A DNA stretch of 21,194 nt from a virus. Position 1 is the stretch's first letter. Every line of letters starts with the position of its first letter. The position numbers and the translations under genes were made by a program. Where the stretch lies: IMG/VR virus record IMGVR_UViG_3300007516_000186, positions 1-21,194 of that record. One strand, written 5' to 3'. Under the pieces are notes generated by a model. That model had not been told where the DNA came from. It made no database searches and saw only the letters and a list, made by a program, of their open reading frames with translations. This document shows positions 1,143-9,039 of this stretch, in pieces.

Positions 1143-3929
1143 ATGGACAATCTACCTGAAGGCTGGTTTTCTTCCGAAGACATTAAGACCTACAGAGAAG
1201 CGGTATTAAAGATAAAAGACGGGGGCACTCTCGTGGAGCTCGGCGTATGGAAGGGCAGGAGCCTCTGTTCAGTTGCCGACATCATTGCAAGTAAAAAAAT
1301 TAATGTCTATGCGGTAGACACTTTTGTCGGGACGACCAACGAAAGCCCAGACTCCTACAAGACTGGGGACATCCCTGTTATTGAGGAGTTTGCGGCGAAC
1401 TGCCTTAACGCTGGCATACCAAAAGGTCAGTTAAATATCATCCACGGAGATACCCAGTTAGTTGTGTTAGATGCATTCCCTGTAATAGATCTTTTGTTCA
1501 TTGATGCTGACCATAGCACTAGTGCGGTGTTAAATGACATACAACGATGGCTGCCGCTTTCTTTATCTGTATATGGCCATGATGCACAGCACGAAAGTGT
1601 AATGGCCGCACTTGATGATAGCGGACATGAATTTCAAGTTGAGGGCAATATCTGGAGGATAGTTATATCCAACACAACGGTCGTTATCCCTACCTTGGGG
1701 AAGTTTGATTTAGCCTTGGAGGCCGTAAGGTCTATCTACAGAAACACGTCGATTCCAGAGTGCGCAAAGCTAAAGGTGTGTGTTGTAAACAACCTTATGG
1801 GTAAGGTCAGCGACGAGCAGCGTCCATTTTTAACAGAGCTAAAAGCTACTGGGGTGTTGATTATCAACTGCGAAGAAAAAGGCTTTGGTCATGCGTGTAA
1901 CGCAGGGGCTATGACGGCAACAGATAATATCATCTTCATGAATGACGACTGTGTTATTCTCGACTATGCAGAATGTGATGAGTGGTTAAAAAAAATCACA
2001 GCACCTTTAAATGACCCAAGTGTGGGAATTGTAGGGGTTAAAGAGCAGTACTCGGCGGATCTGGCCTTTGATTTTCTAATAGGCTTCTTCATAGCCATAA
2101 AGAAAGAAAAATTCTTTAAGTTAGGTAGATTTGCTATTTATGAGTGGGGTGGATGTGAGGATATTGAGCTATCTTACAGGGCTCTTCTTTCTGGGTACAA
2201 GCTTATAAACGTATCAAAAGACAATGGATACCCGATATATCACGCCCCCGAATCAACATTATTGGATGACAACCACAAAGACAAGTGGCCAGTGATATTT
2301 AGTAATAACAAGCAGATCCTTAAAAACAAATTCAAAAAAAAGGTGCGCGTTATCACCCCTATGACAAGGCCAGAAAACCTACGGGCGATCAAAAACTCTC
2401 TTGAGAGTATAAGGAATAAATTTCCTACCCTTGCCATTGAGTGGTTCATAGCTGAGGTTGGAGACAAAGGGGTAAGTGCAGACATTTTAGACACATGGAT
2501 AACTGTTAGATCGGTCGCAGACGTAGGTTACGGAGGCACGGCTAGAACACATATGCTGGAGGATATTGATGACGATTGCTATGCGTACTTTCTTGATGAC
2601 GACAACATTGTCCATCCCACTACATTTAACGACGTGCTTCTAGGTGGTTCAGACGCCATTCTTCTTAAGCAGTTGATGGTATTCCACGGGATAGGCGGAG
2701 ATAACTTCACTAGGCTTACTCCAGCCCATCACAAAGACTACAAGGAGAAAGCGGACACAGCCCAGCTGATAGTTCTTGGCAAGCATGTAAGGGGAATTAC
2801 TTGGGGTAGCACCTATCAGGCAGATGGGGAATTTATAACAAAAATATCTAACAGGCTACTTTCCTTGGGGCTTAACTACAAGCTTTCTACAAATTTCTGC
2901 TATTATAACTACCTGAAAAACAATGGCATAAGCGTGGTCATGCCTACTAGAAACAGGCATGCCACTACACTGCCTTTGTGTTTGCTTTCCGTTGTCACCC
3001 AAACAGTTGCGCCCTCTGAGGTTATGGTTATTGATGATTCTGATGAATTTGTTGATATTAGGGGCTGGCAGTCTTTCGATGCTATTTTTAAGATAGCCCA
3101 AGAGAGGGGGATTAATATACTCTTTACTCCTGGCAATGAAAAAGGTGTTTCCTACTCACGCATGCAAGGCATGAGAACGACCAACTACAGGTACGTATGG
3201 CATCTTGACGATGATTGCATCCCAAGCCATAGCGTGCTCGAAAGTCTGTACTCGGAAATACTTGGCGGGGCTATTGCTGCAGCTCCTCAGTATTTGTTTT
3301 TAGGGGAACCCGTTTATGACAACCCAGGTCTTTCAAATAAAATTGACTGCCTTAGCACGGCTCCTAATGCGCAATGGTTTAACGGCACGGGAAAGGCCAT
3401 TGAGGTTGAGCATTTCTATTCTGGAGGTCTTGTAGACAAGTTAGAGCTGCTGGCATTCGAGTATCCTGGGTTATCACCAGTTGGTTTTAGGGAAGACACG
3501 ATGATGTCGCTGTATCTACACACCAGAGGAAAGATCGTAATCACTGGATCCGCCACTGTATGGCACTACCACGCCAAAACAGGGGGTATCCGAGCAGAGG
3601 TCGGGGGTGAAATGTATGGCCATGACGATAGGTTATTCTCCGAGTTTACCAATGAACTCCTTGGCAGGACACTCAAGAGCAAGGAATTCCACGCTGTGAA
3701 CGGAAAGGGTGATGCGGAAAACCTTCTGGTCATTGTAAGGAAGTGCAGAGAAGAGGGCATAGAGCCTGTTGTATATACGACCAATAACTGTTCGGATGTA
3801 TTCGAGGGGTTTGAGACTTGCTTTGCAAATCAAGAGATGATTGAACAGGAGAGTATCTACAAGTACATGACGGAGAAAAACTGGAAAAGATCAGTTTTAG
3901 AAGCATATAAACAAAAATACTTATGGTGA
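1143..3929 (+). CDS. multidomain methyltransferase-glycosyltransferase (MTase + GT2-like + GT43-like + GT2-like)
   Basis: This 928-aa protein has at least four enzyme-like domains. Residues ~1-175 form a class I SAM methyltransferase-like domain: ELGVWKG (32-38) fits the SAM loop, with D59 after a strand, HGD at 101-103 and LFIDADH at 118-124. Residues ~176-395 are GT2-like, beginning NTTVVIPT, with NDD at 267-269 as DxD-type metal site and CEDIELSYR near 338. Residues ~400-590 begin VRVITPMTRP and carry YFLDDDN (482-488), resembling the DDDN motif of GT43 enzymes. Residues ~594-840 are a clear GT2 domain: VVMPTRNR, VIDDSD (629-634), HLDDDC (687-692), FREDTMM (782-788) and VWHYH. The last ~85 residues may start another Rossmann-type domain. 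No signal peptide or membrane segment is seen, so it is probably cytosolic. It likely transfers sugars, perhaps methylated, to a virion or host-surface acceptor. The acceptor is unknown. Confidence 0.85.
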   Translation: MDNLPEGWFSSEDIKTYREAVLKIKDGGTLVELGVWKGRSLCSVADIIASKKINVYAVDTFVGTTNESPDSYKTGDIPVIEEFAANCLNAGIPKGQLNIIHGDTQLVVLDAFPVIDLLFIDADHSTSAVLNDIQRWLPLSLSVYGHDAQHESVMAALDDSGHEFQVEGNIWRIVISNTTVVIPTLGKFDLALEAVRSIYRNTSIPECAKLKVCVVNNLMGKVSDEQRPFLTELKATGVLIINCEEKGFGHACNAGAMTATDNIIFMNDDCVILDYAECDEWLKKITAPLNDPSVGIVGVKEQYSADLAFDFLIGFFIAIKKEKFFKLGRFAIYEWGGCEDIELSYRALLSGYKLINVSKDNGYPIYHAPESTLLDDNHKDKWPVIFSNNKQILKNKFKKKVRVITPMTRPENLRAIKNSLESIRNKFPTLAIEWFIAEVGDKGVSADILDTWITVRSVADVGYGGTARTHMLEDIDDDCYAYFLDDDNIVHPTTFNDVLLGGSDAILLKQLMVFHGIGGDNFTRLTPAHHKDYKEKADTAQLIVLGKHVRGITWGSTYQADGEFITKISNRLLSLGLNYKLSTNFCYYNYLKNNGISVVMPTRNRHATTLPLCLLSVVTQTVAPSEVMVIDDSDEFVDIRGWQSFDAIFKIAQERGINILFTPGNEKGVSYSRMQGMRTTNYRYVWHLDDDCIPSHSVLESLYSEILGGAIAAAPQYLFLGEPVYDNPGLSNKIDCLSTAPNAQWFNGTGKAIEVEHFYSGGLVDKLELLAFEYPGLSPVGFREDTMMSLYLHTRGKIVITGSATVWHYHAKTGGIRAEVGGEMYGHDDRLFSEFTNELLGRTLKSKEFHAVNGKGDAENLLVIVRKCREEGIEPVVYTTNNCSDVFEGFETCFANQEMIEQESIYKYMTEKNWKRSVLEAYKQKYLW

Positions 3930-4396
3930 TACTTCTTCATATATCGCCAGCGAATGGTGATGACAACCCAAAAGCCTGGCCTGTTAGCCATGTGGAAGCC
4001 CTTATGAACCTCGCCCCAGAGCATGACTACCGAATTGTTGGGGCAGAAGGTAGCGCTATACTCCAAAACCCTAAGATTACTGCAGTTAAAGGAACGCGCA
4101 AAGAGCTTCTGGATTACATAGATAAAAACGTAGACTTGGTTATTGCCATAGATAGCTGGATTCAGCATTTGGTGGCGCTAAACACCTCCAAGCCAATGAT
4201 TGTTTTATTCAGCAGAAGCAACCCAGAGATATTTGGCCATAAAAGGTCTGGCGTTATCAACCTCTTTGAATCAGAGGATTACTTTAGATCTGAGCCATTT
4301 TACAGCTGGATTGGTGAGCGTGTAATGCCCGAGGCACTGGTAAGTCCTGAACAGGTGGCGCGGTCGATAGGGTTGCTTAAACGTCGATCTAAATGA
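3923..4396 (+). CDS. GT9 (heptosyltransferase)-like glycosyltransferase domain protein
   Basis: This 157-aa protein resembles the C-terminal, nucleotide-sugar-binding half of GT-B enzymes of the GT9 type. It opens VILLHISPA and has a polypeptide pattern of alternating strands and helices. AIDSWIQHLVAL (75-86) corresponds to the family's D[ST]-xxx-H-xxA stretch. It is followed by PMIVLFSRSNPEIFG (91-105), like the usual P-x-v-x-L-F-G-x-t-x-P segment. Complete GT9 enzymes are about 320-350 residues, so this has only one of the two Rossmann domains. Its start overlaps the end of the 928-aa enzyme by seven bases (ATGGTGA), implying translational coupling and a shared role. It may pair with the C-terminal ~85 residues of that protein. 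A lone domain with lost activity is the alternative. Confidence 0.65.
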   Translation: MVILLHISPANGDDNPKAWPVSHVEALMNLAPEHDYRIVGAEGSAILQNPKITAVKGTRKELLDYIDKNVDLVIAIDSWIQHLVALNTSKPMIVLFSRSNPEIFGHKRSGVINLFESEDYFRSEPFYSWIGERVMPEALVSPEQVARSIGLLKRRSK

Positions 4397-4415
4397 CATA
4401 TCTGATGTAGGGAAT

Positions 4416-4428
4416 AATAAAATCATTT
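4416..4428 (+). promoter_or_regulatory. leader motif AATAAAATCATTT, second copy
   Basis: These 13 bases are identical to 1128-1140, which lie just before the 928-aa enzyme gene. Here they lie 8 bases before the ATG at 4436 and 27 before the ATG at 4455. The position, in a short A/T-rich gap upstream of a start codon, suggests a shared promoter tail or translation leader typical of SD-less Bacteroidota genes. Chance similarity of A/T-rich sequence cannot be excluded. Confidence 0.25.
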
Positions 4429-4435
4429 TGTTGTT

Positions 4436-4477
4436 ATGGCTATTAAAAAGAAGAATGCTTTTTATCATTTCGCCTAA
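4436..4477 (+). other. 13-codon ORF preceding and overlapping the TerL-upstream gene
   Basis: ATG at 4436 opens MAIKKKNAFYHFA and stops at TAA 4475-4477. The early Lys-rich codons and the A/T-rich leader look like a genuine gene start. The downstream coding frame is +1 relative to it, and its ATG at 4455 lies inside this short ORF. Options are a true leader peptide, a one-base indel in the A5 run (4442-4446 region) that split one gene start, a +1 shift at or before the TAA, or chance. Confidence 0.25.
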
Positions 4478-4928
4478 CGAAACAATGTTTGAGAGCAATC
4501 CTCATTTGTCATCTATGCCTGAATTTGAAGGCGTTACAGATGCGCAGATGAGGTTTGTTTCGTTTTACTCCGACTGGAGGAGTCCGTACTCTAAGCTTGA
4601 GAAGTCAGAGAGAAGAATGAGGGCTATGGACGCAGCCTCTCTTGAGGACGATGCTGGTGTTGATAGGTATATATCTTCTTACATGCAGATACAGGGAATT
4701 GAAGAGGAGTTTAAAAGTATAGACTCTATGAACAACGCGATAGCTACGCTGAGGAAAAAGATTGACAACGACGAGGGGGACATAGAAAAGAACTCCAAGA
4801 CGCTTATCTCTACCATTAAGAACAAGCGTGTTCTAGAGCAGTTAATAAACGAGTACATGAATATCCAAGATGTCAACATAACAGAGACCGATGCCTTCTC
4901 TACAATTGACCAATATCACGTAAAATGA
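4455..4928 (+). CDS. small protein upstream of TerL, possible small-terminase-like or packaging accessory
   Basis: This protein is 157 aa from ATG 4455. The frame is open further upstream to a TTG at 4428, but that start would place WLLKRR in front and is less likely. It begins MLFIISPNETMFESNP, then EFEGVTDAQMRFVSFY, and continues as mostly long helices. The second half, about residues 60-140, is Asp/Glu/Lys/Asn-rich with heptad-like hydrophobics, and a coiled coil is likely. Its stop overlaps the TerL start in ATGA, so the two are probably translationally coupled. By position it could be the small terminase, but no helix-turn-helix could be identified by eye and no sequence signature confirms this. 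The start is uncertain because of the short overlapping ORF at 4436. Confidence 0.75.
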   Translation: MLFIISPNETMFESNPHLSSMPEFEGVTDAQMRFVSFYSDWRSPYSKLEKSERRMRAMDAASLEDDAGVDRYISSYMQIQGIEEEFKSIDSMNNAIATLRKKIDNDEGDIEKNSKTLISTIKNKRVLEQLINEYMNIQDVNITETDAFSTIDQYHVK

Positions 4929-6811
4929 TAAAACAATCGTTAATAGATTATTGCTATACTCAAGCTTTTGATGTTGATTCTGATGTAAAGCTCTACTTGG
5001 ACAAGATAGGCAAGATAGAGATGTCTACCTACACGCCAATAGCTTTCAAGATGCCTCACTTCACAAACAGGACAGAGCAGCGTAGGTGGGAGGTCGAAGA
5101 GATAAGAAGGACTAGGCAGGGCTACGGAGGAATTTGCGGCATGTCTTATCTATACACCTATTACTGGAAGATTAAGTCAAAAGAGTCTGGCTTAAGAATA
5201 CCAGAATATAGAAGGGGCATGACCGAGTTGTTTAATATCATCGAGTCGTGTCTTTATGGGGAGTCTGAGTATTACCCAGATAGAACTGGCCAGGGGCTTA
5301 TCCTAATGGGTAGGCGTAGGTGGGGAAAGTCAGCGGGTATAGCTAACGCCATGTATTCTACCGCAATTCATAACCCGTATGCAGACATTGGTATAACATC
5401 TAAAGACGAGGCTGATGTAAAAAAATTCTTTGCCGAAATCCTTAAGATTGGATATGACAACTTGCCGCCCTTTTTAAGGGCATCTTCTACGGCTGGTAAT
5501 AGCGCTATGCGTATGGACTTTTCTAGGAAGGTATCAGACAAAGAAGGCAACACAAAAAGAGAAGGCATCGGGTCAACAATATTTGGCCGCAGTCCTACGG
5601 AGACAAATTTTGAAGGTACGGGCATGAAGATGTTTGTAATCGACGAGATAGGCAAGATGAGCCCTAATCAGTTAAAGCAGCTATGGTCATACACAGAGCC
5701 CGCGCTTGCTGCGGATGATGGTATTACCCGTATTGGAGTGCCTATACTTGGCGGAACTGCGGGAGATATGGACATGAACGGCGATGACGCTAGGCACTTC
5801 TGGCAAAAGGCAGACGACTATGGCTTTGTGAGGTATGCGGCTATGGGATGGAACGGCCTAATGGTTGGCCCAGAGGGAAATGAAAACGTCATAGAGGGGC
5901 TTAAATACATACTTTCCGAGAGAGAGAAAAGAAAGAGACAGAGCATGAAGCGCTATTACGACTTCGTGGTTCAGTACCCTCTTGAAGAGGAGGAGATGTT
6001 TATCGTTGTAGGCGATACCCCTTTTGATTTAGACCTTATCAATAACAGGAATTCTTATCTATTTAAAAACCCTACGGAAATAGTAAACGGCAGGTTTAGA
6101 GAGGTGAACGGAAATGTTGAGTTCTACCCAGAGGTAGAGGGGCCAGGTCAGATGATAGAGCACCCAGAGAAGGGTACAATATACGCAGCTGGATGTGACC
6201 CTACAGACGGGGCAAAGAAAGCAAATATCGGGTCAGACTTATCTTTCTTTATAGCAAAAGGACTTGGCCATTCAGAAGACTCTATAAGCAATTCCGCTGT
6301 ATTCCAATACACGGCAAAGCCCAAGGACATGAACGAGGCTTATGAGCAGTGCTATCTGGCATGTAGGTATTATTCGCCACCAGGATCCCCGACGGTTACC
6401 GTTCTTATTGAGCGCAACAGGGCTAGGATGATTGCTTATTTTGAGGACAGACAACTGTCTGAGTTCTTAGCCAAGAGGCCACAAAAAGTTGGTAAGATTT
6501 CTAGGCCGACACACACCATAGAGTATGGCGTTTACATGGACACCACAACACAAGACCAGCTAATAGGAATGATTGATGATGACATCATGAATAACATTGA
6601 GCACTACAACTTTACAGACCTTCTGGGGGACTTGGCGACATATAATCCAGACATTGATAGCAAGAAACATGACAGGGTTGACGCTTGGGGGCTAACATTG
6701 CTTAATCTACGAACAACGGCAAAAAGTAGAGTGTTTAGAGAGAAGACTGATTCAGATATGTATAATGGAATTGGTTTCGTGAAAAACAAAGGCAAATTAG
6801 TCCAAAAATGA
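4925..6811 (+). CDS. terL: terminase large subunit (DNA-packaging ATPase and nuclease)
   Basis: This 628-aa protein has both TerL domains. In the N-terminal ATPase, GRRRWGKS (129-136) is a full GxxxxGKS Walker A, MFVIDE (236-241) is Walker B with catalytic E241, and GGTAGD (276-281) fits the coupling motif after it. In the C-terminal RNase H-like nuclease, acidic residues expected for metal binding are D425 in GCDPTD, E496 in VLIERN, and D583/D586 in HDRVDAW. TerL docks on the portal, translocates DNA into the procapsid and cuts concatemers. Length is in the usual 450-650 range and no motif is broken. It overlaps the preceding gene by ATGA and the portal gene by four bases (6808-6811). This is the firmest functional call in the window. 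Confidence 0.95.
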   Translation: MIKQSLIDYCYTQAFDVDSDVKLYLDKIGKIEMSTYTPIAFKMPHFTNRTEQRRWEVEEIRRTRQGYGGICGMSYLYTYYWKIKSKESGLRIPEYRRGMTELFNIIESCLYGESEYYPDRTGQGLILMGRRRWGKSAGIANAMYSTAIHNPYADIGITSKDEADVKKFFAEILKIGYDNLPPFLRASSTAGNSAMRMDFSRKVSDKEGNTKREGIGSTIFGRSPTETNFEGTGMKMFVIDEIGKMSPNQLKQLWSYTEPALAADDGITRIGVPILGGTAGDMDMNGDDARHFWQKADDYGFVRYAAMGWNGLMVGPEGNENVIEGLKYILSEREKRKRQSMKRYYDFVVQYPLEEEEMFIVVGDTPFDLDLINNRNSYLFKNPTEIVNGRFREVNGNVEFYPEVEGPGQMIEHPEKGTIYAAGCDPTDGAKKANIGSDLSFFIAKGLGHSEDSISNSAVFQYTAKPKDMNEAYEQCYLACRYYSPPGSPTVTVLIERNRARMIAYFEDRQLSEFLAKRPQKVGKISRPTHTIEYGVYMDTTTQDQLIGMIDDDIMNNIEHYNFTDLLGDLATYNPDIDSKKHDRVDAWGLTLLNLRTTAKSRVFREKTDSDMYNGIGFVKNKGKLVQK

Positions 6812-9039
6812 TAAACTCTGCGCTTGGCGTAACTTTCCCCGATTTATGGGTTCCTGACAAGGATAAACAAGAAGATTACCACAAACGAGCGGTAATGTCC
6901 ATTCTTGGTCAGACGGTATCTACTGGTTTTATTCCCAACCTGTATACTGCAATGGATATGTCCATGCGGTTTTACAATTCAGATTACGATCTTTCGGATA
7001 AGTTTGACTTCATGGAGAGAGACTATAATGGTCGATCTCTTCCTGCTTTATGGATTAACTACAATAAAATACGAAGCAAGATAAACTTGCTAGAGGGGGA
7101 GATGACCCAAAGGCCATTAGTACCCCATTGCAAGACGGTGAACAAAGATGCCGCCACTCGGAAGATGAAGCGGAGAGCGTCGATCATCACCAACAACATT
7201 ATGTTTGAGGTAGCCAAAGAGCTCGATCCAGAAGGAGAATTGATACCAGAGGTTAAGCGCGACTTTGTACCCCATTCAGAAGAAGAGTTGGATTTATTCA
7301 TGCAGTCTTCTTACAAGGAGAATGTGGAGCGGGTAGCAGAGAGAATACTAGAAAAAGACTTTGAGCGCCTTCGCTATCGTCTATTACGGCTGTCATTGTG
7401 GAGAGACATACTCATCACTGGTCGGGCCATTGTTAAGCACGAGATGGTTAACAACAAGCCAAACCTACGAAGAATTGACCCTCGATATGCCATAGTAGAC
7501 CCGTACTGTTTTGACGACATGCTTTCTGACGCATCCTTTGTTGGTGAGTGGAGATATGCTCCATTAGCCGAAGCAGCACAGGACTACGGGTTGTCTTTAG
7601 AGGAGCTAGACGAATTAAGAAAAGACACCAACACATGGATCTGGGGCGGGTACACCAATGGCTCTACAAAATTCATGCTCCCGTTCATGCAAGAAAACGC
7701 ACAATGGAAAACCCTTGTGTTTTATGCCGAATGGAAGGATATTAAGCAGATGCGATGCAAGGTTACTGTAGACAAATATGGTAACGAGCACGTAAAGTTT
7801 TTAAACAAAGACGATAAGGGCACACTATCAAATAAAGAGCAAATAGCTGGATCTAAGGTAGAAACAAGAAATATAGAGACCGTAAGAAAAGCCACCCTTG
7901 TAGGAGGGTCTATTCTTAAAGAATGGGGAGAGATGGACAACCAGGTTCGCACGTCTGTTGATGATGTGGCCAGCACTCAGTTCAGCTACACATTTGTGTC
8001 CCCACAGTATGTGAACTTTAGAAGCGTATCAAAGGTTGAGGAGATTTCTGCACTGCAGGAGTTTAAAGACCTTATCATGTACACCATACAGACAGAGATG
8101 TCTACAGCTGGTCGTAAAGGATTTGTTTATGACACAAGATACAAGCCAGATAATCTATCTGTACAGGACGTGCTATACTTCTTGAAGGTCGCTGGTATTG
8201 CATTTACAGATAGCGGGAAAGAGGCAGTGCCACCTAGTGGAAATCCGTTCCCTGTTATTGATAACAGCCTTACAGATGCAATATCCAAGTACATGGAGCT
8301 TTCTAACTACGTGGACTTAGAGATGGACAGGATAAGCGGCATTAATGATGCCCGCCAGGGATTCCAGAAACCATCTACTCTTGTAGGTGTTAACCAAATG
8401 TCTCTCGTTCAGTCCAGTCTAATTACAGAGCCGCTGTTTGCCGCATTTAGGACGTTTGAGAACGTAACGCTACAAAAGTACGTAAACTTCGTTAAGACAA
8501 CATGGTCTTTTACCAAAGAGCTTTATGCTACAGCGGTAGGGGAGCTTGGGGTTAATATGTTTGAGATTGATGAGGACTTTGAGCTTCAGGACTACTCTAT
8601 TTACATAGACTCCGAAGGCGGGGGAATAATGTCAGACAGAAGTAAGTTTGAGCAAATGGTAATGGCCGCTGTACAACAGGGCGGACTTGGAATGGATGAG
8701 GCGTTAGTGCTTCTTTATGAGCCGAACTTAAAAGACGGGGTTAAAAAGTACTTAGCCATTACGGAAAGAAAAGCATCCCAACAACAACAGTCTATGGCCG
8801 CACAAGAAGAGGCTATAGGTCAACGTGAAGCACAAGCCACTCAAGCGTCTACACAGTCGCAGATTGAGGTAGACAAAGCCAAGAGCGATAACAAAGCCGA
8901 GCTGACGGTGCTAAAGGAAGAACTTAAAAATAGCACAATGAAGAACAAAGCTATGTTAGATGAGTTCATGGACAAGCAAAAAAGACAGTTTGAGCTGTTT
9001 ATGGAAACCATAAGAGAACAAGAAAACAAAAAACCATAA
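6808..9039 (+). CDS. portal protein
   Basis: This 743-aa protein directly follows TerL, with its start in ATGA overlap. Its N-terminal half has the helix-rich pattern of Bacteroidota podovirus portals: INYNKIRSKINLLEGEMTQRP (about 83-103) precedes a helical, charged stretch and the RIDPRYAIVDP strand region. It then has a mixed central domain and GINDARQGFQ with SLVQSSLITEPLF, the stem/wing-type segment. The last ~93 residues (651-743) are Gln/Ala/Lys/Glu-rich with no Gly or Pro until the end, and probably form a long coiled coil or barrel/crown helices. The portal forms the dodecameric DNA channel at the capsid vertex and binds TerL and the adaptors. The identification rests on position, length and sequence character; no short catalytic signature exists for this family. 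Confidence 0.88.
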   Translation: MINSALGVTFPDLWVPDKDKQEDYHKRAVMSILGQTVSTGFIPNLYTAMDMSMRFYNSDYDLSDKFDFMERDYNGRSLPALWINYNKIRSKINLLEGEMTQRPLVPHCKTVNKDAATRKMKRRASIITNNIMFEVAKELDPEGELIPEVKRDFVPHSEEELDLFMQSSYKENVERVAERILEKDFERLRYRLLRLSLWRDILITGRAIVKHEMVNNKPNLRRIDPRYAIVDPYCFDDMLSDASFVGEWRYAPLAEAAQDYGLSLEELDELRKDTNTWIWGGYTNGSTKFMLPFMQENAQWKTLVFYAEWKDIKQMRCKVTVDKYGNEHVKFLNKDDKGTLSNKEQIAGSKVETRNIETVRKATLVGGSILKEWGEMDNQVRTSVDDVASTQFSYTFVSPQYVNFRSVSKVEEISALQEFKDLIMYTIQTEMSTAGRKGFVYDTRYKPDNLSVQDVLYFLKVAGIAFTDSGKEAVPPSGNPFPVIDNSLTDAISKYMELSNYVDLEMDRISGINDARQGFQKPSTLVGVNQMSLVQSSLITEPLFAAFRTFENVTLQKYVNFVKTTWSFTKELYATAVGELGVNMFEIDEDFELQDYSIYIDSEGGGIMSDRSKFEQMVMAAVQQGGLGMDEALVLLYEPNLKDGVKKYLAITERKASQQQQSMAAQEEAIGQREAQATQASTQSQIEVDKAKSDNKAELTVLKEELKNSTMKNKAMLDEFMDKQKRQFELFMETIREQENKKP

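Follow-up and report, generated by a model that had tools for sequence, protein, structure and literature searches.

Structure of the cassette

The virus record IMGVR_UViG_3300007516_000186 of IMG/VR (21,194 bases; 'the window' hereafter means this whole stretch of DNA) carries two overlapping genes on its plus strand that appear to form a glycosyltransferase (GT) cassette. The first is an open reading frame (ORF) of 928 amino acids (aa), which starts with ATG at 1143, ends at 3929, and encodes a methyltransferase (MT), three domains of the GT-A fold and a C-terminal extension. The second, ORF2 (3923-4396, 157 aa), resembles the C-terminal half of a GT-B enzyme of family GT9. The two share the seven bases ATGGTGA (3923-3929).

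Domain 1 of the long protein (residues 1-176; 1143-1670) is an S-adenosylmethionine (SAM) methyltransferase of the Methyltransf_24 type with the motifs ELGVWKG and LFIDADH; the Pfam family (PF13578) matches residues 31-139 (E 5.6e-12, 46.9 bits for a cut-off of 26.3). Domain 2, named GTa (residues 177-395; 1671-2327), is a GT2-type GT-A with an NDD motif and the acid pair GGCED, and matches Glyco_tranf_2_3 (PF13641) at 178-303 (E 8.9e-10, 39.4 bits, cut-off 27). Domain 4, GTc (residues 593-842; 2919-3668), is a GT2 GT-A with the motifs DDDC, RED and WH...GGIR, matched by Glycos_transf_2 (PF00535) at 597-716 (E 8.8e-26, 91.3 bits, cut-off 23.3). It keeps all the residues found invariant in an alignment of its family, namely DDD, R-E, WH and GGIR.

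Domain 3, GTb (residues 396-592; 2328-2918), belongs to no Pfam family, and Pfam and PHROG searches with it gave no match. Its AlphaFold2 model (predicted local distance difference test score, pLDDT, 89.8) nevertheless has a clear GT-A fold. The best match in the PDB is WrtF (Z 19.1), followed by TarP, TarS and RmlT (18-19) and by SpsA and GlcAT enzymes (about 16-18); AvpGT and GlcAT-P also fall within the Z 16-19 range. No GTb turned up among 42 related viral records. A search of 395 Bacteroidota genomes yielded one relative, L117, and an alignment of this relative with the window GTb then found 216 viral relatives. LDDDN, D-x-A, DG and YN are invariant across the family alignment and are kept in the window. 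GTb seems to be a GT-A family, frequent in phages, that has not been named. The Bacteroidota relative (L117:907-2097, minus strand) is a 396-aa protein in which a GTb-like domain is joined to a Methyltransf_24 domain, and one locus (L203) has tandem GTb genes at 3540-4115 and 4112-4684 that overlap by 4 bases.

Single-sequence searches of the PDB gave no useful match. Composite alignments that mixed the 928-aa protein, or the fused relative L114 described below, with rows covering one domain were misaligned, and were left out of the folding.

The 928-aa protein is, we are almost certain, an MT followed by three GT-A domains. This had been proposed in a reading of the letters without database searches ('the sequence-only reading'), and Pfam supports it with Methyltransf_24 and two GT2 matches, the GTb model supplying the third GT-A domain. 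The metal motifs that it listed (NDD, DDDN and DDDC) are present, with family-invariant residues kept in GTb and GTc, and the seven-base overlap is as described.

A GT-B enzyme probably split between two genes

The sequence-only reading named ORF2 as a GT9-like partner. This holds in so far as ORF2 is GT9-like over the C-terminal half, but ORF2 is very probably not an independent enzyme. Residues from about 843 to 928, in turn, are very probably the N-half of a GT-B of GT9 type and not the tail of the third GT. From the structural modelling and gene pairing that follow, we consider it likely that a single GT9-like GT-B is made up of the extension (residues 843-928; 3669-3929), a probable N-terminal Rossmann half with the motifs GKGD and SIYK..W, and of ORF2, with the motif DSW.QHL.

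This reading is based on a nearly obligate pairing, on a natural one-chain form, and on the GT9-like model of that form. An extension of about 85 residues (GxGD, then YKKM..W) is present in every GTc relative; GTc plus extension, as found in these relatives, is called 'GTcX'. When the distinct genes of two scans were counted, an ORF2-type gene came directly after GTcX in 101 of 105 cases, and GTcX directly before the ORF2-type gene in 96 of 98. A stop-start overlap ATGA was observed at 112 of 119 stops in the relatives, where the window has ATGGTGA, and ORF2 is probably translationally coupled to the 928-aa gene. Programmed frameshifting at this junction was set aside: among 30 junctions no conserved slippery run lies upstream, and ATGA is conserved instead.

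As for the GT9 assignment, Pfam GT9 (PF01075) matched 19 of 20 members of the ORF2 family (best 2.7e-6), though the window ORF2 itself, at 0.0028, lies below Pfam's cut-off. ORF2-type proteins match GT9 solely over its C-terminal half, and the alignment of the ORF2 family with WaaF, WaaC, WaaQ and WaaU by hhalign (94.2%, E 1.2e-7) likewise falls on their C-half. The halves, which elsewhere almost always lie in two ORFs, are joined in L114, a 766-aa chain of the order GTa-GTc-extension-GT9 C-half. When the GT-B part of this chain was modelled, its best PDB matches over both halves were WaaC (Foldseek E 1.6e-6), TibC (Z 13.2) and WaaF (Z 13.1), with Z of 12 to 13 for the three enzymes, the N-half aligning from residue 1 onward of WaaC and WaaF.

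Intact GT9-like proteins were also encountered. Three single-chain proteins of 253 aa (L200:638-1399, L223:6584-7345 and L227:634-1395), which lie beside stand-alone phage GTb genes, begin with GSxGDHxxxTGIPEA.

Distribution of the modules among phages

Relatives were collected with short peptide patterns, keeping no more than 80 loci per scan, so that the rarity of any fusion is a statement on this sample. For GTc, an alignment built from the match in phage P19250A found 188 viral relatives, and 80 of these were kept. In the GTc tree the window sits on a very long branch (best identity 34%), which says nothing on ancestry or on the direction of fusion. Exact peptide patterns revealed no close relative in IMG/VR of the whole 928-aa protein, nor of GTa or GTb alone.

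The core made of GTc and the split GT-B was found on more than 180 viral contigs, where the other modules are separate or differently fused. The locus census counted, as stand-alone genes, 152 GTcX, 162 ORF2-type and 81 GTb, plus MT genes; the fusions were GTa-MT (43), MT-GTcX (11), that of L114, and long chains of 1312 to 1405 aa with several GT2 and MT domains. Relatives of GTa form the N-terminal domain of GTa-MT genes of 409 to 477 aa, directly upstream of GTcX, in about 30 of the first 80 loci. The Methyltransf_24-type domain is joined to GTb in L117 and to GTa in L115, a contig discussed below. Among the largest ORFs are L150:388-4326, L192:769-4986 and L165:798-4823; in L150 and L192, which directly precede GTcX, Pfam recognises three to four GT2 domains along with methyltransferase domains, FkbM among them.

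The order Methyltransf_24-GTa-GTb-GTcX was encountered solely in the window. The domain order that had been regarded as novel is thus unique in this sample, but every one of its modules is common, as a separate gene or in other fusions. The window belongs, as a divergent and fused form, to a cassette type widespread among aquatic phages, and it illustrates how freely these modules fuse and reorder.

Only 4 loci were matched when 84,980 genomes of bacteria and archaea were scanned, and at least two of them (L113 and L114) lie in phage-like gene contexts. With cellular loci so few, and some of them in such contexts, the cassette core seems mostly viral. The cellular contigs L112 to L115, assigned to Mucilaginibacter, Nitrosotalea, Nitrospirae and archaeon metagenome-assembled genomes (MAGs), are short or have phage-like contexts, and some may be misbinned phage.

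Comparison with known systems

In the annotated phage collection, the Methylophilaceae phage P19250A was the sole phage to match more than the methyltransferase. Its genes 0024 to 0026 (KX815270) encode, as in the window, an MT, then a GTc with C-terminal extension (29% identity, matching window residues 602-923), then an ORF2-type protein (31%). Unlike in the window, these are three separate genes, the MT is of another type, and GTa and GTb are absent. The P19250A cassette adjoins a gene matching tail-fiber and collagen-like tail PHROGs. The annotation of P19250A_0023 (L031, KX815270, 3732-7337) is tail length tape-measure protein, but by PHROG it resembles a tail fiber of the collagen-like kind, and it has a run of 138 G-x-x triplets.

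L114, a phage-like contig of a Nitrospirae MAG (JADFXO010000033), shares with the window a single chain in which GTa precedes GTc and the extension, and a collagen-like gene adjoins it; it differs in having the GT9 C-half fused as well, and in having neither MT nor GTb. L115 (CABMCB010000028, 'uncultured archaeon LFW-28') resembles the window in that GTa shares a chain with Methyltransf_24 ahead of GTcX, and an ORF2-type gene is present with a 4-base overlap. There, however, the order is GTa-Methyltransf_24-GT17 (a 676-aa fusion, L115:3784-5814), GTc is a separate gene, and GTb is missing.

The heptosyltransferases WaaC, WaaF and TibC share with the cassette the sequence profile of ORF2 and, judging by the L114 model, probably the fold of the joined halves. 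They are single chains, whereas the window has its halves in two ORFs and thus departs from the one-polypeptide form of GT9, with an N-half that is not recognisable by sequence. GT-B enzymes divided into N- and C-half genes that assemble one active site are known from Alg13/Alg14 and EpsE/EpsF (PMC8993221). Those are GT1/GT28-related with a membrane-anchored N-half, while the enzyme predicted here would be GT9-like and soluble, its N-half fused to a GT-A chain. In the literature searched, we did not find the core arrangement of GTcX and split GT-B described, and it may be new.

Proposed function and acceptor

Functions attributed to phage GTs vary, from host surface change (PMC7029224) to DNA protection (PMC10202952) and virion glycosylation (PMC12363180). 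We propose that the three GT-A enzymes and the SAM methyltransferase of the 928-aa chain would act as a soluble machine assembling a glycan in several steps. A fourth enzyme, the GT9-like GT-B, would form when the last 86 residues or so of the chain (N-half) pair with ORF2 (C-half), and translation, coupled where stop and start overlap, would provide both halves at once. Host nucleotide-sugars could then donate up to four sugars one after another, of which one would be methylated, and the acceptor would most likely be a phage fiber or another virion protein. The computations show the domain identities, the near-obligate gene pairing in relatives, the one-chain form in L114 and the GT9-like model of that form; we infer from these the assembly of the halves, the activity of all sites, the order of the sugars, which position is methylated and, most of all, which acceptor is used.

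These parts are not equally firm. Soluble multi-step glycan assembly is likely. Neither cassette protein has a transmembrane segment suggested by hydropathy. That the acceptor is a virion protein is favored with less assurance, and the explanation taken as a whole, namely a multi-step machine with a split GT-B acting on a virion protein, we regard as moderately probable. The class of explanation given by the sequence-only reading, in which the cassette builds a glycan and works on virion proteins or the host surface, remains the best one.

The virion acceptor is suggested first by the surroundings of the cassette in relatives. A collagen-like ORF was found in 63 of 118 distinct cassette loci and in 20 of the 109 loci used for comparison (Fisher p 5e-8), in statistics that ignore relatedness and use a comparison set of convenience, taken from other searches. 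In 29 of 57 testable loci it was directly adjacent, compared to 12.7 expected when gene positions were shuffled within loci. Mycobacteriophages also offer a precedent: with experimental support, they glycosylate capsid and tail-tube proteins using their own GTs (reported in PMC12363180). For Che8, Corndog and Myrna, the action on virion proteins predicted for the window is demonstrated; the available part of that source mentions no split GT-B.

Several points weigh on the other side. Apart from the limits of the locus statistics, about half of the cassette loci have no collagen-like gene, and the window's own neighboring gene, cut by the contig end and without a convincing family match, is not confirmed as a fiber. 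In addition, GT9 enzymes classically act on lipopolysaccharide (LPS), as WaaC and WaaF do.

This last point, ORF2 being GT9-like, speaks for the main rival, in which the cassette alters a host surface glycan (LPS or capsule) and so blocks superinfection or changes the receptor. A place beside fiber genes would also suit a host-recognition island; GTs beside the tail fibers of pelagimyophages were interpreted as modifying the host surface, within host-recognition regions (PMC7029224). The window's genes sit in a structural and packaging region, however, and neither protein has a membrane segment. O-antigen conversion by phages normally requires membrane parts, that is, a flippase and a lipid-carrier GT. 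No such gene, and no sugar-pathway gene, was recognised by searches of the 21-kb fragment; nor was there a GtrA match among its genes scanned, or a strongly hydrophobic segment in the cassette proteins, as expected of Gtr-type conversion, which uses a membrane flippase and a bactoprenol-linked GT next to a membrane GT. We consider a host-surface role unlikely, though it is the rival to be taken most seriously.

A second rival concerns the split enzyme itself. ORF2 could be an independent small protein (a regulator or a separate enzyme) and the extension a structural tail of GTc, the appearance of a split GT-B being coincidental. Two results count against the split and fit this view. The extension and the GT9 N-half, though aligned at the expected G-x-GD position, show no significant similarity by hhalign (0.3%, E 0.24). 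The L114 model of extension plus C-half is of moderate quality (pLDDT 71), with block means of about 47 to 75 in the N-half and values under 50 for 86-126. It is from this fused relative that the GT9-like fold was read. An independent ORF2 would, on the other hand, leave the near-obligate pairing and the conserved ATGA overlap unaccounted for, as well as the one-chain form in L114 with a GT9-like match spanning both halves. It would also be a lone GT-B C-half without the other half of the active-site cleft, and the intact single-chain proteins of the GTb loci start with a similar GxGDH motif. We judge this rival improbable, and keep the split GT-B.

Glycosylation of a hypermodified base in the phage DNA, as a shield from restriction, is more improbable still. 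Diverse glycans can be attached to DNA by phage GTs as hypermodifications (Pyle et al. 2024, as cited in PMC12619734), and the window has a very weak match to phrog_842, a beta-glucosyl-HMC-alpha-glucosyltransferase (HMC, hydroxymethylcytosine; E 0.023). This match covers only the generic GT-A part, though, the cassettes cluster with tail-fiber genes, and no base-hypermodification gene was recognised in the window, itself a fragment.

Least of all do we believe that an assembly error merged separate genes: the window is a metagenome fragment with no independent copy found and a domain order unique in the sample, but its 928 codons are uninterrupted with short in-frame linkers, relatives contain other large GT and MT fusions, and the G+C content at third codon positions is nearly constant over the four domains (0.466-0.474) and matches that of the large terminase (0.478) and portal (0.470) genes, which counts against chimeric assembly and against any very recent insertion.

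Combining the multi-step machine with the survey of relatives, we tentatively suggest an undescribed two-gene machine in wide use among aquatic phages, built on a GT9-like GT-B that is cut between its two domains. The N-half would always be fused behind a GT-A and the C-half coupled by stop and start, so that two GTs are held together as a single heteromer next to tail fibers of the collagen-like kind; the window would represent a line with five activities (MT, three GT-A and the split GT-B) making a methylated virion glycan. If this is true, more than 100 uncultured aquatic phages and the cultured P19250A share a glycan-building gene set, which annotation misses or scatters as 'hypothetical protein' and stray glycosyltransferase matches. 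With its GT-A and split GT-B, the core would then arrange a classical enzyme family in a new way, predicting that the halves must assemble. Collagen-like phage fibers that are glycosylated would parallel the glycosylated collagens of animals and viruses, and would matter for how stable phages are, and how they adsorb, in lakes.

Neighboring genes and phage lineage

All neighboring genes described are on the plus strand. In order, the window has a gene cut by the contig end (3-497), a 136-aa gene (693-1103), the 928-aa ORF, ORF2 and the packaging genes. The sequence-only reading placed the cassette between a fiber-like gene and the packaging genes, but the fiber-like gene is not confirmed. The cut gene, a 164-aa 3' part and an unconfirmed fiber, has no convincing family match in Pfam or PHROG, and the 136-aa gene, of unassigned function (phrog_1401, E 3.8e-8), intervenes just upstream of the cassette. 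A promoter scan of the window performed no better than on shuffled sequences.

The packaging genes place the phage near the crAss-like phages, by its large terminase TerL (4925-6811, phrog_6681) and portal protein (6808-9039, phrog_6547), both of crAss-like type, and by an SU10-like capsid protein. The portal is 22 to 25% identical to those of crAss-like and Flavobacterium phages. The cassette was found in 0 of 29 terminase relatives (61-65% identity), within their available sequence, which rules it out as a core part of the phage lineage; since these relatives are without it there, it is rather a variable part.

Between ORF2 and TerL lies a small packaging-region gene that ends at 4928 and probably starts at ATG 4455, not at TTG 4428. 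Pfam and PHROG scans of the longer form (4428-4928) gave no convincing family match. The gene has counterparts of 35 to 41% identity in 23 terminase relatives, with alignments that begin near residue 10, and wherever the relative's sequence reaches TerL the counterpart immediately precedes it. Being just upstream of TerL, the gene is a candidate small terminase.

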